Virus record (IMG/VR): IMGVR_UViG_3300009705_000174
Coordinates: 1 to 20,249 of that record
Length of the DNA stretch: 20,249 nucleotides
DNA from: a virus
Direction: 5' to 3' (one strand)
Of this stretch, positions 1,954-20,042 are shown in pieces. The notes below the pieces were generated by a model that was not told the origin of the DNA, made no database searches, and saw only the letters and a program-made list of their open reading frames with translations. Position 1 is the first letter of the stretch; each line of letters starts with the position of its first letter. The position numbers were made by a program, and so were the translations under genes.

Positions 1954-3309
1954 TTAGAAGGCGACATCATCAATATCTTCATCTATCTTGTGCTCTGACA
2001 CTTCTCTCTCTGCAGGAGACATGGCAGACTCTGGGCCAATCTTCATTGTTTCCCAGTCCATCTTAGATGTAAAAGATAGCTGCGCGGCGGAACGCATTTT
2101 AACACAGTTAAACGTGATACAGTTGTCTTCGTGCTCATACGCTTCTAGCGCATAGGCAGCATCAGCTGAGTCAAGAATACCTTTTGCAAAACGCGCTTCA
2201 CCGGTAGCGTCAGTCTGATAAGGAGATATGACAGTACATTCGTACTCTTGTGCCATACTCTTTAGGGCTTTGCTTACTTCTATTTGTTCAGTCCAATCGT
2301 ACTGTCCAGAACGAGATGGGATAGCGGAGCGTTTCACTTGGTTAATGTAGTCTACCAAGATAACCCCGACGTTGAGAGCTTTCACTTTCTTGTCCAATTC
2401 GGCCTTAATTTTTGCCAGAGTAAGGCCTGGATCATAAATCACATCTAGCTGCTGAGTTGGGAGAAGCTCAGTAGTAGTTGATAAATTATGATGAAACTTC
2501 TCGAAGTCGCGGTGTTCTCGATATTCCTGTAAACGATCTTGGCCATCCGTATAACGACTAGCCCACCAACCCGCTACTTTTTCCCATTCTGTTACATTAA
2601 GATTTTTCGTGCGCAGACGAGAAAAAGGTATTCCCGTTGCAATAGAACATACTCTCTGAAGGATTGAACGACTATCCATTTCAATAGTGAAATACATAGC
2701 CGAACGACCACTCTCAAAGACAGTATGAGCAATATTTGCACAGGTAAGAGACTTGCCTGCTCCACGACGACCACCAAGAAGAACAAGATCTCTGGGAGAG
2801 AACTGTATCTGGTAATCGTACTCAGCGTTTAGGCCGAGGGGCAGGTATTTGCCAATCTCTTCATCATCTTCAAACAGTTGAATACGTTGCATACTCTCCT
2901 GCGGTAGTTCTAGGTCAACTTTCTTTTCAACATCTAGAACAATCTGATGTAAGTGTGCTACTGATTCTTCTGCATCTTCAAAAGCTACAGAGTTATCAAT
3001 ATAATCCTCTAGGGAATCTAAGATTTCCTTTTGGGTATACTCGTTCTTGAGATATTGTAGCAGCATAAATGCATCTACATCAACTTCCACACTCTCGATT
3101 GCATATAGCTTTTCAATAGTTGCAGAGTCACGTATCTCAAACTTCAAGTCTTCAAAGGTTGGTAGGTGGTGAAACTTATCGTAATGCCTATCAATTGTGT
3201 TAAACACAGTATGATACTCTGTAGGCAAATAATCCTTACGAACGGAACTCCAGGTTTCGAAATCCTGTAACGTAAGTACTTGCTTTATTAGCGCACTAGC
3301 AATATTCAA
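1954..3309 (-). CDS. Replicative DNA helicase, DnaB/RecA-fold
   Basis: This is a hexameric replicative helicase of about 451 aa. The C-terminal RecA-type core has Walker A GGRRGAGKS at about residues 179-187, a following MYFTIEMDSRSILQR segment that matches the DnaB H1a/H2 region, and Walker B VGVILVDYINQVK near residues 315-327. The N-terminal 140 residues are helical and correspond to the primase-interacting N domain. No ATG fits. The TTG at 3307-3309 is chosen because GGGAG lies five bases before it; another TTG four codons upstream (3321) lacks this site. The gene follows the terminator at 3328, so it depends on read-through from upstream or on a promoter I cannot see. Together with the separate primase it forms the phage primosome. 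Confidence 0.93.
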   Translation of the reverse strand: MNIASALIKQVLTLQDFETWSSVRKDYLPTEYHTVFNTIDRHYDKFHHLPTFEDLKFEIRDSATIEKLYAIESVEVDVDAFMLLQYLKNEYTQKEILDSLEDYIDNSVAFEDAEESVAHLHQIVLDVEKKVDLELPQESMQRIQLFEDDEEIGKYLPLGLNAEYDYQIQFSPRDLVLLGGRRGAGKSLTCANIAHTVFESGRSAMYFTIEMDSRSILQRVCSIATGIPFSRLRTKNLNVTEWEKVAGWWASRYTDGQDRLQEYREHRDFEKFHHNLSTTTELLPTQQLDVIYDPGLTLAKIKAELDKKVKALNVGVILVDYINQVKRSAIPSRSGQYDWTEQIEVSKALKSMAQEYECTVISPYQTDATGEARFAKGILDSADAAYALEAYEHEDNCITFNCVKMRSAAQLSFTSKMDWETMKIGPESAMSPAEREVSEHKIDEDIDDVAF

Positions 3310-3327
3310 AGTAACTCCCAACCAACC

Positions 3328-3382: not shown

Positions 3383-4108
3383 TTAGCCAGCGGCTTTTTC
3401 TTTCTTCGCAGCACCGTCATAGTCGGAAGCGACCAAGCCACGACGGGTCAACATAGTCTTTACACCACGAGCAGTCTTACCAATGTTTTCTGCAATAGCT
3501 TCCACTGTCATGCTTGAGATATCACCCAAGTCTGCTAATGGATCTTCTTTTGCTGAACCTTTGGTATGTTCCTGACGAGGAATACCATCAATGTCACCAG
3601 AGCGAAGCAAGCTAAGAGCTTTACCACGTACTGAGTTTACACTGCGGTCTAGAGCGTCTGCGATCTGCTCAACGAAAGCACCATCATTAACCATTGAAAC
3701 AAAAGTTTCCTCTTCATCAGGGTTATAGGTACGAACGGCTTCTACTTTAGGAGCAGGCTTAACGTGATCTGTCAGTTCCATAGAAAGAATCTTTCCTTGG
3801 ATTGACTTAGCAGAGAAAGCGCCTGATTCAAAGTTATCAGCGATTTGAGCATAAGTATATTCACCACTGTTGTCAGACACGAATGTCTGCAAAGTAGCTT
3901 CTTGTGCTTCCGTGAAAGCACGGGCAGAGGAGGCTGACGCCAGCTCTACATCAAAACCCATCTTACGCAGTTTGCTAGAAACTGAACGGGTTGAGGTTTC
4001 AAGGTTTTCTGCTGCTTCTGCAACAGTTGCTTGAGAAATAGGTGTTTCGTTACCGACGAAGCTAGTAAGCTGTTCGGTACGTTCTTCGGTCCACTTTGGC
4101 AATGCCAT
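3383..4108 (-). CDS. Multi-repeat GcrA/Myb-like helix-turn-helix DNA-binding protein, 241 aa
   Basis: The protein is built from about four related helix-turn-helix units at residues 5-51, 64-110, 127-168 and about 196-228. Each has the pattern aromatic-T/N-E...L...(V/I)A..(L/F)...S...V..K...(M/L). The first begins KWTEERTEQL and ends SVSSKLRKMG; the third ends NSVRGKALSLL. This resembles SANT/Myb-like and GcrA-type HTH domains, known DNA binders. The tail is lysine- and alanine-rich (KKEKAAG). It is the largest member of a paralogous family in this window (others at 6579, 15930 and 17568, and a single-domain relative at 12486). GGAGA lies before the ATG, four bases after the ligase subunit stop. 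A structural or regulatory DNA-binding role in the replication region is likely; the target is unknown. Confidence 0.7.
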   Translation of the reverse strand: MALPKWTEERTEQLTSFVGNETPISQATVAEAAENLETSTRSVSSKLRKMGFDVELASASSARAFTEAQEATLQTFVSDNSGEYTYAQIADNFESGAFSAKSIQGKILSMELTDHVKPAPKVEAVRTYNPDEEETFVSMVNDGAFVEQIADALDRSVNSVRGKALSLLRSGDIDGIPRQEHTKGSAKEDPLADLGDISSMTVEAIAENIGKTARGVKTMLTRRGLVASDYDGAAKKEKAAG

Positions 4109-6578: not shown

Positions 6579-7034
6579 TTAGTACTCTGCGTCAGCGGCA
6601 GATAGTACACCTGCGAAGTAAACGGCTGCTTTACCAGTCAACTTAGAAATTACGTCTTCGTCAACTGCCTTACCCATATCTACGATAATGGCTGTAAGTG
6701 CGTCTTGTGCTGCTTGCTTTGATACTCGTGTGCCGCCTGTTGAACCACTAGAAGTAGTACTACTTCCGCTTGCTGCAGGGGTCTTTTTGATGTAAACACC
6801 AGCTTTGCTAAGTACCATACGAACTCCGTTGGGAGACTCGTCATGTTCCTCAGCGATATCTTTTACGATTTCCATTGATGTTTCGGGGGTAGGGTTTGCG
6901 TTCTCGTATGCTTCGATTACCGCTGCTTTCTTATCGTCGTCCCAAGCCATGTTTCTTTTCCTTTTAATAGGGTGGTTTAATCCTGGGCAGGTACCCAGTA
7001 CTTCTCGTTGTTGTGCGTAAAATCGGTCGCCCAT
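6579..7034 (-). CDS. GcrA/Myb-like HTH protein with Ser/Gly linker, 151 aa
   Basis: Residues 29-78 (MAWDDDKKAAVIEAYENANP up to VRMVLSKAGVY) match the same helix-turn-helix module as the proteins at 15930 and 17568. A flexible Ser/Thr/Gly linker follows (about 85-98, SGSSTTSSGSTGG), then a helical C-terminal domain (SKQAAQDALTAI to the end) shared in pattern with those two. Two starts are possible. The ATG at 7034 has GAGG before it and follows a consensus promoter; it adds 28 basic residues (GDRFYAQQREVLG and IKRKRN). The ATG at 6950 has AAAAGGAAAAG before it and would match the paralogues. I keep the longer form. The gene stands alone between promoter and terminator, which suggests high expression. 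It is probably a DNA-binding regulator or DNA-organising protein. Confidence 0.7.
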   Translation of the reverse strand: MGDRFYAQQREVLGTCPGLNHPIKRKRNMAWDDDKKAAVIEAYENANPTPETSMEIVKDIAEEHDESPNGVRMVLSKAGVYIKKTPAASGSSTTSSGSTGGTRVSKQAAQDALTAIIVDMGKAVDEDVISKLTGKAAVYFAGVLSAADAEY

Positions 7035-11347: not shown

Positions 11348-11480
11348 TTCTTTGCTCCTCAATCTTAGATGTGTCCTGTGTTTCATTACTTTCGTCCTCC
11401 CCGTAACGACCCCGATCACGGTTTCCATCACCATTTAGCTCAGTTAAATCCTGTTGGGTCTCTTTGAAATTTCTTTCCAT
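11334..11480 (-). CDS. Very hydrophilic small protein, 48 aa
   Basis: An almost entirely charged or polar peptide (ELNGDGNRDRGRYGEDES in the middle), probably disordered. Its ATG overlaps the holin stop (TAATG), with AGGGAAAAG before it. It ends inside the next gene. No membrane segment or lipobox is present, so it is not a spanin. Function unknown. Confidence 0.55.
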   Translation of the reverse strand: MERNFKETQQDLTELNGDGNRDRGRYGEDESNETQDTSKIEEQRNDAE

Positions 11481-11869
11481 TACTTTTCCCTACTCACGCC
11501 TTGTACTTTTTCGTAGCTTCTCATGGCCCCTAATCCTAGCATACCCATCATTACGGGAGTGAGTGCTTCGGTATCTACGGGGGGTAACTCTATCCATACA
11601 GAAAGTATGGGATGTAGTATCACGTTATATAATAATCCTAAGCCGCACGTCCAACCAATTGCTGGTCTCCATCCGGCTACAAATAAAGATTTATGTGCAG
11701 CTTCGACTTTGTTTACTTCTAGTTGCGCTAGCTGTTGTGCGTGATGCTGTTTATCCGCTAATGTAGCTATTTCATGTGCTAACTTATTAGCTTGATCTTT
11801 GTCTACTATAAACTCTGATACTAAACCTGATACAGGCCCAATCAGCTCTTTTATAAATCCAAGTGCCAT
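11480..11869 (-). CDS. Holin, 3TM family (gene-transfer-agent type)
   Basis: A 129-aa membrane protein. An N-terminal amphipathic region (FIKELIGPVSGLVSEFIVD) and a charged helix (about 22-62) are followed by WRPAIGWTCGLGLLYNVIL at about residues 67-85 and a last hydrophobic segment ALTPVMMGMLGLGAMRSYEK at about 103-122. The FVAGWRP...GW...L plus MLGLGAMRSYEK pattern is that of the 3TM holin family (Holin_3TM). It would form lesions in the inner membrane to release the lysozyme encoded at 10725. AAGGA precedes the ATG. It is followed by a coupled run of three genes. Confidence 0.82.
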   Translation of the reverse strand: MALGFIKELIGPVSGLVSEFIVDKDQANKLAHEIATLADKQHHAQQLAQLEVNKVEAAHKSLFVAGWRPAIGWTCGLGLLYNVILHPILSVWIELPPVDTEALTPVMMGMLGLGAMRSYEKVQGVSREK

Positions 11870-18561: not shown

Positions 18562-18590
18562 ATTATACTACCTTCGACTTTTCTTGTCAA
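18562..18590 (-). promoter_or_regulatory. Sigma70-type promoter
   Basis: Minus strand: -35 TTGACA (18585-18590), 17 bp, -10 TATAAT (18562-18567), followed by AGTTGCATA as at the PPK2 promoter. It lies within the end of the PPK2 gene. Confidence 0.88.
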
Positions 18591-19215
18591 CAATTCTTTC
18601 CTCTAAGGTGTCACATAGTTTAGTAATTAAAGCTAGGCGACCCTCTTTCTTGTCATTGTAGTTGATAGGATACCAGTCATTAGTGGTAGTCATTACACGC
18701 TCTTTGAGAATAGTCATCTCGTCATAGTAAGATAGAGCTTTGATATCATTTGGTGACAGCTTCCACGACTTGAGTGGAGAGGTCTTTCGCTCATTAATAC
18801 GATCATTATGCTCGTCTTCACTGATAGATAACCAGAACTTGATGTACTCTATGTCTTGGTTAGCTTCCCAGTTGTTCACGGTTAGCATGAAGTCGCAGTA
18901 CTCTTCGTCTGAGCACCAGTCATTGATAGGCTGTACCATAGCTCTAGAGTACCAACTACGATCAAAGAATGTAATCATAGGTCGCTTAGGCAATTTGGTT
19001 TCCCAGAACTTAAGCCAGCTTTTCATAATCTTAGAAGTAGGCTTTGTAGAAAGAACAACGCTGTACGAATCTGTAGGCATATAGTGTGTCAACTCACGAA
19101 TAGTGGATGATTTACCAGCCGTATCTCTACCTTCTAGCACTACAGCAGTAGGCTTAAGGTTAGGGTTGGCTAAGATGCTGTTCAGTCGTGCTTGTTGTCT
19201 TTCTAATTTGTTCAT
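18568..19215 (-). CDS. Polyphosphate kinase 2 (PPK2) family protein, 215 aa
   Basis: Transfers phosphate between polyphosphate and nucleotides (NDP to NTP, or NMP to NDP, depending on class). Motifs in order: Walker A VVLEGRDTAGKSSTIRE (residues 26-41; family FEGRDAAGKGGTI), FFDRSWYSRAMV (83-94; family NRSWYNRAGV, lid and Walker B region) and KSWKLSPNDIKA (149-160; family WKLSPMD), then WYPINYNDKKEGRL (181-194; family NDKKRARL). All key segments are present, so it is probably active. The start is the ATG at 19213-19215 with AGAGGAA before it, after a consensus promoter. A longer in-frame ORF to 19341 would begin upstream of the promoter and is rejected. Single-gene transcription unit. Confidence 0.92.
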   Translation of the reverse strand: MNKLERQQARLNSILANPNLKPTAVVLEGRDTAGKSSTIRELTHYMPTDSYSVVLSTKPTSKIMKSWLKFWETKLPKRPMITFFDRSWYSRAMVQPINDWCSDEEYCDFMLTVNNWEANQDIEYIKFWLSISEDEHNDRINERKTSPLKSWKLSPNDIKALSYYDEMTILKERVMTTTNDWYPINYNDKKEGRLALITKLCDTLEERIVDKKSRR

Positions 19216-19239
19216 GCTATTCCTCTTTTGTATGCAACT

Positions 19240-19268
19240 ATTATACAACCCTACGCTTCTGTTGTCAA
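19240..19268 (-). promoter_or_regulatory. Sigma70-type promoter for PPK2
   Basis: Minus strand: -35 TTGACA (19263-19268), 17 bp, -10 TATAAT (19240-19245), leader of about 25 nt. Confidence 0.9.
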
Positions 19269-19390
19269 CTGTATTTCCTCGTTTGGTCATAAAACATCGC
19301 AACCGATCTCCCGGGGGCCGGTCGCGGGGTTTTTCTGTCAAGTTTTATTTACTCTAATTTACTAAAATTATATGAAATTAAGTGCACCCG

Positions 19391-19465
19391 TTGCGGGGTT
19401 TGCACAAATTATCTACGCTTATCTAAGACTAACGCAATCTGACATAATTTGTGCAAACCCCGCAA
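19391..19465. repeat. Perfect 22-bp inverted repeat
   Basis: Arms 19391-19412 and 19444-19465 (core GCGGGGTTTGCACAAATTAT and its complement) are separated by 31 bp. Each arm contains TTTGCAC, a sequence related to the TTGCACT repeats that follow. There is no T-run that would make it a simple terminator. Confidence 0.9.
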
Positions 19466-19471
19466 AAATAC

Positions 19472-19500
19472 TTGACATTGCAGAGCGTTGCATGTATACT
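19472..19500 (+). promoter_or_regulatory. Plus-strand promoter inside the non-coding region
   Basis: -35 TTGACA (19472-19477), 17 bp, -10 TATACT (19495-19500). A second TTGACA with 17 bp and TATTTT follows at 19555-19583 and is weaker. No plus-strand gene lies downstream, so the transcript would be non-coding or antisense to the 76-aa gene. Confidence 0.6.
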
Positions 19501-19520
19501 GGCGCCGGAGACCACCGCTT

Positions 19521-19659
19521 TTGCACTAAATTGCACTTAACTTGAAAAAAAGACTTGACATGCATTGCTTTTGCACTTATTTTGGCGCAAGCAACACTTT
19601 CGTTTTTGCACTTCGCTTTTGCACTGGCGCCCCCGCGCCAAATCACCGTAAATTGCACC
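19521..19659 (+). repeat. Iteron-like TTGCACT repeats
   Basis: TTGCACT occurs at 19521, 19531, 19571, 19606 and 19619, with a variant TTGCACC at 19653, all on the same strand. The first three are spaced 10 and 40 bp, on one face of the helix. Four of the five exact copies extend to TTTTGCACT. Direct repeats like this typically bind a replication initiator or repressor. Confidence 0.7.
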
Positions 19660-19763
19660 CCCTCCCTGCAAAAGACTACTAACCCCGCGCATGCGCTCGC
19701 AATCGGGGACGAGCAACACAAATATAATCGTCGTCGTACTACTACTGGCGCCCCCGCGCCAAA
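19623..19763 (+). repeat. Two identical 20-bp GC-rich repeats
   Basis: ACTGGCGCCCCCGCGCCAAA is present at 19623-19642 and at 19744-19763. Each contains TGGCGC-CCCC-GCGCCA, a 6-bp inverted repeat. Further TGGCGC half-sites occur at 19500 and 19583. Confidence 0.85.
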
Positions 19764-19789
19764 ATCATGCTGTCAAGCAATGATTTTGG
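19759..19789. repeat. 10-bp inverted repeat
   Basis: CCAAAATCAT (19759-19768) and ATGATTTTGG (19780-19789), 11 bp apart, between the second GC-rich repeat and the parS-like site. There is no T-run on either strand. Confidence 0.7.
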
Positions 19790-19799
19790 TCGTGGGATG

Positions 19800-19831
19800 T
19801 GAAACAGTGTTTCACGTGAAACAGCGTTTCA
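19800..19831. promoter_or_regulatory. parS-like centromere site (exact chromosomal consensus) in a 32-bp near-palindrome
   Basis: The core TGTTTCACGTGAAACA (19808-19823) is identical to the consensus site bound by chromosomal ParB proteins across many bacteria. The flanks extend the symmetry to 32 bp: TGAAAC on the left and GTTTCA on the right, with only the two pairs at positions 7-8 of each half mismatched. Three partly overlapping GTTTCA/TGAAAC palindromes result. The core overlaps the last two sense codons and the stop of the 76-aa gene (19812). A chance 16-bp match in 20 kb is very unlikely. Binding by host ParB is inference. Confidence 0.85.
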
Positions 19832-20042
19832 GATCTAGGACAAAATGAAGTTTGTCCCTCAGCACGCGGCACCATGAATATGCCCTATGCAATTCGCTGT
19901 GTACGGCAATCAAGTCTTCTACCTCCTGACGAGAAAGCTCTACCACGAAAACCTCGCGCGTTTGTTCCTGTTTATAGTAATGTGGCACCATACGCTCTAC
20001 AGTTACCGTTTCGGTTTTGTTGATTTTTCTGATAAATTCCAT
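19812..20042 (-). CDS. Hypothetical protein, 76 aa
   Basis: Opens MEFIRKINKTETVTVERMV and continues with a helix (VVELSRQEVEDLIAVHSEL), then SWCRVLRDKLHFVLDLK. It is soluble and not recognised. The ATG at 20040-20042 has AAGGG seven bases before it. The longer in-frame extension to 20210 overlaps the membrane-peptide gene and is rejected. Its final residues C-F-T and stop are encoded by the parS core. Confidence 0.65.
   Translation of the reverse strand: MEFIRKINKTETVTVERMVPHYYKQEQTREVFVVELSRQEVEDLIAVHSELHRAYSWCRVLRDKLHFVLDLKRCFT

Follow-up and report, generated by a model that had tools for sequence, protein, structure and literature searches.

Results

An exact parS site at the edge of a non-coding region

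The window, by which we mean the whole stretch of viral DNA analysed (20,249 nucleotides), contains near its right end a repeat-rich non-coding region with promoter-like sequences, which separates a PPK2-family polyphosphate kinase gene from a palindromic cluster and a small ORF (Table 1). A motif scan showed that positions 19808-19823 are identical to TGTTTCACGTGAAACA, the exact chromosomal parS (ParB-binding) consensus and a 16-bp palindrome, as the sequence-only reading of this DNA had claimed. From the base composition of the window, the exact word is expected about 8×10−6 times. This is also the sole window match with fewer than three mismatches to parS, and at three mismatches or fewer there are two window matches versus 0.08 per window in dinucleotide shuffles.

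Inverted-repeat analysis placed two arms of 85% complementarity at 19796-19815 and 19816-19835, and GTGAAACAGYGTTTCA is present as direct copies at 19799 and 19816. The 32-bp symmetry described earlier was thus recovered and resolves into four half-sites, those of a full parS and two that flank it on the outside. The position of the site over a stop codon, at the edge of the repeat-rich stretch, likewise held up. No intrinsic terminator was found, and Rfam returned tRNA-Cys only. The form TGAAACA-n-parS also occurs elsewhere: in two contigs of this phage, in three further contigs of viral origin and in seven from bacteria. We rejected this extended half-site form as a signature of the host; it occurs in scattered Clostridia, Desulfovibrio and other contigs. 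For the PPK2 gene, there was no T5-like phage among the 15 named phage records matching it.

Table 1. Features of the window discussed in the text.
Feature	Position	Strand	Remarks
DnaB-like helicase	1954-3321	minus	T5-type replication gene
D5-like regulator (phrog_323)	3383-4108	minus	T5-type gene
phrog_1725 protein	6579-7034	minus	family of the T5 A2 DNA-binding protein
ORF, 137 aa	7085-7498	minus	weak PHROG 'ParB-like' matches over residues ~66-127; no Pfam domain
PPK2-family polyphosphate kinase gene	18568-19215	minus	far side of the non-coding region from parS
Repeat-rich non-coding region	about 19216-19807		adjoins parS; promoter-like sequences
Palindromic cluster, 32 bp	19800-19831		TGAAACA-g-TGTTTCA-CG-TGAAACA-gc-GTTTCA; full parS and two outward flanking half-sites (TGAAACA, GTTTCA)
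Small ORF, 76 aa	19812-20042	minus	no family match; last codons and TGA stop (19812-19814) inside parS

Gene content and order are those of a T5-like phage

Family searches of the window matched T5-type DnaB, primase, D5-like regulator, NAD ligase (split) and a PolA fragment. A 41-kb contig that is 99.9% identical to the window (G001) contributes terminase, portal and capsid genes, and its terminase is about 50% identical to those of T5-like phages of Pectobacterium and Vibrio. Both the set of genes and their order proved to be of T5 type, for D5, DnaB, primase, PolA, split NAD ligase, the A2 and dmp families and terminase. Outward from parS, early genes, ligases, D5, DnaB, primase and PolA lie on one side and terminase, portal and capsid genes on the other, and the same order flanks the terminal repeat in the T5-like genomes phi 3, VF16, D51 and VCPH. 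A dmp-family gene (phrog_415) is located about 1 kb from parS and the A2-family gene (phrog_1725) about 13 kb away; the 41-kb contig yielded no A1, and no ends of a repeat are visible in the contigs, which are fragments. Because the gene order and the dmp-family gene match T5-like genomes, the parS region is plausibly the pre-early/terminal-repeat region. The earlier description of a lytic-phage genome agrees with the T5-like replication and terminase genes, and the lytic lifestyle itself we infer from the relatives, which also point to a host that is probably Gram-negative and non-sporulating. The 41-kb contig also encodes a 382-aa protein (2215-3363 of L129) that reads as serine hydroxymethyltransferase, in a family (phrog_9968) annotated 'methyltransferase'.

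No phage ParA or ParB in the sequence covered

Searches for ParB_N, HTH_ParB and ParA domains (PF02195, PF17762 and PF13614) gave no match in the five contigs of the group, the longest of which is 41 kb. The claim that the window holds no ParA and no ParB with an HTH was therefore borne out, and its suggested extension to the rest of the genome gave the same result across the 41-kb near-identical contig. This search reached about 15 kb on one side of parS and 26 kb on the other, or about one third of the genome if the phage is of T5-like size. In particular, the 41-kb contig has no parA or parB genes linked to parS of the kind found in phage or plasmid ParABS cassettes. We rejected the protein with weak 'ParB-like' matches (Table 1), the sole ParB-like candidate in view, as a phage ParB; it has neither an HTH nor a Pfam ParB_N domain and is not a credible parS binder.

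The site in close relatives

The close relatives of the window are four IMG/VR contigs only. Megablast of the window against named phages gave no match, and no close named relative was found through the small ORF next to parS or through PPK2. Exact parS is present in three near-identical contigs of the phage (the window, G001 and G004). In G003, which is about 90% identical in the non-coding flank, TGTTTCACATGGAACA occupies the same place, with 14 of 16 bases retained and one change in the central CG. The 16-mer is thus unchanged in the near-identical G001 and G004; in G003, the sole informative relative, the share of motif bases kept does not exceed the 90% identity seen in the non-coding flank, a result compatible with constraint and with drift alike. 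G003 also lacks the flanking half-sites, and an unrelated ORF replaces the small ORF. Homology between the window and G003 stops where the motif ends on the right, and the motif lies on the homologous side in both lineages. Restriction avoidance of CACGTG was considered as a cause of the G003 change but is not supported, since CACGTG counts match the Markov expectation in both G001 and G003. Elsewhere in the non-coding region, a 75-bp element with a perfect 22-bp inverted repeat (19391-19465; arms 19391-19412 and 19444-19465) is 100% identical in the otherwise ~90% identical G003 and is a candidate cis-acting element, such as an injection stop or an origin.

parS is in excess across phages and avoids genes

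Exact parS was found in at least 120 stretches of IMG/VR, a viral set that may include some bacterial fragments, versus 1, 3 and 7 for three palindromes of the same base composition. Among isolate phages, 387 records match a 30-mer around parS versus 2 for the reversed control; since many of these records are closely related, the figure counts records and not events. They span phi29-like, Listeria, Microbacterium, Arthrobacter, Gordonia, Lactobacillus, Enterococcus, Pseudomonas, Roseobacter and Pelagibacter phages and microviruses. Furthermore, parS sites in viral DNA avoid genes: in the 120 IMG/VR loci listed, 74 of 146 exact sites are not fully within an ORF of at least 90 aa, versus 20.8 expected. 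At the DNA level, the window showed no relationship to any of the other 120 parS-bearing viral loci listed, and protein matches between the window and these loci were confined to a small ORF (11480-11869), which matched two of them.

HTH_ParB was detected in none of the 50 parS-bearing IMG/VR records examined, many of which are fragments. In several viral contigs, three to five exact parS sites are packed into about 1 kb (L017 2657-3444, L044 10535-11462, L053 240-961 and L063 276-910), and the records of L017 and L044 contain no HTH_ParB. Microvirus records of about 6 kb in INPHARED (for example PQ006097 and PQ006098) have 10-12 reported places, corresponding to about 5-6 palindromic chromosomal parS sites.

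Codon-level conservation of a parS variant in the phi29 family

In six of six phi29-family genomes from three genera (phi29, B103, Goe1, Goe6, BSP11 and Chedec 11; L167-L172), the coding end of gene 10 carries AATGTTTCACGTGGAACAT, a parS variant one base off the consensus, unchanged at the DNA level. The C-terminal residues around it vary, and between genera (68-77% nucleotide identity) only about 41-52% of the other codons for unchanged residues are identical. In total, phi29 has four parS-type sites per genome, B103 two and Chedec 11 three. PMC9437464 cites Meijer et al. 2005 for the report that host ParB (Spo0J) entraps the phi29 chromosome in spores. The literature searched yielded nothing on host parS in lytic phages beyond this spore case.

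Centromere-type motifs in T5-like phages of known hosts

In Vibrio phage phi 3, the left terminal repeat contains an exact parS that lies upstream of A1, in the gap that separates A1 from A2. Two copies of TTTACANTGTAAA, the published V. cholerae chromosome-II parS consensus (PMC7022226 Table 1), share the 136-bp gap with this exact parS, all within 63 bp (L139 2934-2996), and a one-mismatch parS variant adjoins dmp. The chromosome-II motif is present in nine of ten T5-like Vibrio phages (phi 3 and JSF10, pVp-1, VF16, VPT02, D51, D254, 234P2 and VCPH), and the records other than that of phi 3 (L144-L153) hold it 1 to 8 times each, versus about 0.02 expected per genome and 0 for the reversed control. 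Wherever the annotation was read (phi 3, VF16, D51, pVp-1 and VCPH), it lies in gaps of the pre-early A2-A1-dmp block.

Chromosome-I-type sites are found as well in two of the ten T5-like Vibrio phages and are missing in most of those tested and in Aeromonas phage AhSzq-1. Compared with phi 3, both chromosome-I-type sites of JSF10 (L158 and L162; 88000 and 90148) show one and the same C-to-T substitution, as though the two had been altered jointly. T5 and four further T5-like phages of enterobacterial type (Eos, DU_PP_V, KKP_3711 and My1) lack the chromosome-II motif and have no centromere motif of the chromosome-I type either. Escherichia and its relatives are not known to have a chromosomal ParABS system. 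The window phage resembles the T5-like Vibrio phages (Demerecviridae and relatives) in its T5-type replication and terminase genes and in having a centromere-type motif. Most of the Vibrio phages have the chromosome-II motif, whereas the window-group contigs have none and the window phage has only a chromosome-I-type parS, which is not beside A1 or A2.

Discussion

We consider it probable that the parS described here is a landing and loading site that recruits host chromosomal ParB to a lytic, T5-like phage apparently without a ParB of its own. Because parS is far commoner in virus genomes than expected by chance, the virus probably borrows a host segregation protein. Capture of host ParB had been proposed from the window itself, and it is the reading best supported by the enrichment in phages, the avoidance of genes, the codon-level conservation in the phi29 family and the host-matched motifs in the pre-early DNA of T5-like Vibrio phages but not of enterobacterial-type ones. 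On the other side stand the 14 of 16 bases kept in G003 and its want of flanking half-sites, the missing chromosome-I-type site in AhSzq-1 and in most T5-like Vibrio phages tested, and the distance of the A2-family gene from parS.

The main rival, which we regard as unlikely, holds that the palindrome serves a phage-encoded regulator as its operator and equals parS by coincidence, with four half-sites that would bind at least two dimers and control promoters in the adjacent non-coding region. Such an operator would account for four half-sites in place of a lone parS and for the promoter-like sequences close by, in a phage that encodes several DNA-binding proteins (D5-like and the A2-family phrog_1725 protein), and the motifs of T5-like Vibrio phages do sit in gaps between pre-early genes. 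However, the over-representation of the identical 16-mer in unrelated phages would be left unexplained, as would the fact that Vibrio phages match the centromere motifs of their own host while T5, which has A2, has neither. Less probable again is a neutral relic or chance occurrence, in which host DNA gained at a recombination border is now drifting. The end of G003 homology at the right edge of the site, where a gene has been swapped, and the two motif bases that differ in G003 would fit this scenario, but in both lineages the motif falls on the side where homology persists, the exact word is hardly expected in the window at all, and the sites are strongly enriched across phages and avoid genes.

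Two further explanations appear very improbable. One is an RNA hairpin that would act as a terminator or processing signal for the small minus-strand gene, at its 3′ end, where the minus strand does fold into a long hairpin (z −2.9); however, such folding is expected of any DNA palindrome, nothing resembling a terminator was found, the minus-strand arm of the G003 copy is interrupted by a mismatch, and the exact 16-letter identity to parS would be unaccounted for. The least probable of the alternatives is that the site is the centromere of a phage-encoded ParABS located elsewhere in the genome. Phages with plasmid-like lysogeny carry ParABS, and about 70 kb lies outside the sequence covered, assuming T5-like size. 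Against this, parS normally lies beside parAB and none was found within the reach of our search on either side, and T5-like phages are lytic. Phage and plasmid ParABS cassettes do share with the proposed arrangement a ParB-parS pair on an extrachromosomal replicon, although in such cassettes the ParA and ParB are the element's own, with genes that usually adjoin the site, and neither was found in the 41 kb of the window phage.

If the site recruits host ParB, the protein would attach to the 16-bp palindrome, close around the phage DNA as a clamp and spread, and phage DNA would thereby come under the host segregation and organisation machinery, including the ParA gradient, SMC loading and subcellular position. 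Loading of ParB may take place early in infection, because the site is in the gap between the T5-type early/replication and terminase/head blocks, which in T5 is the position of the first-injected terminal repeat. For a T5-like phage, candidate gains would be tethering or positioning, SMC-driven compaction, easier DNA entry, regulation of early genes, or disturbed host segregation. What we infer here is that ParB binds, that the site enters early and that the phage benefits at all.

The closest precedent is phi29 and its relatives (Salasmaviridae), which, like the window phage, are virulent and carry host-type parS without a phage ParB being found; for the window phage, this refers to the 41 kb covered and to a lifestyle judged from relatives. 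The window phage differs in being unrelated, far larger and T5-like, with one exact site flanked by half-sites. Since its host is probably Gram-negative and non-sporulating, the benefit cannot be spore entrapment. Phage use of host ParB is thus known from phi29, and what would be new is its use by a T5-like phage whose host probably does not sporulate. Host regulators are also co-opted through CtrA and LexA sites in phages (PMC9437464). There, too, phage DNA carries sites to which a host protein of the cell cycle or stress response binds; CtrA and LexA are transcription factors, whereas the protein recruited by the window phage would be a segregation clamp.

The pattern across phages and T5-like Vibrio phages is a more interesting result than the window site itself. 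More tentatively, unrelated phages, including T5-like ones whose hosts have ParB, may have repeatedly acquired host centromere sequences, with the effect that clamps of host ParB are loaded soon after entry, and the host-chromosome motifs (in phi 3, those of both chromosomes) in the first-injected terminal repeat of T5-like Vibrio phages might aid DNA uptake, positioning or pre-early gene control. If recruitment of host ParB is true, such phages would obtain, with no gene of their own for it, ready access to ParA gradients, SMC complexes and cell position; alternatively, they would disturb host segregation through titration of ParB. The excess of exact parS in phages and the host-matched motifs in the first-injected DNA of T5-like Vibrio phages make this idea testable in cultured phage-host pairs.
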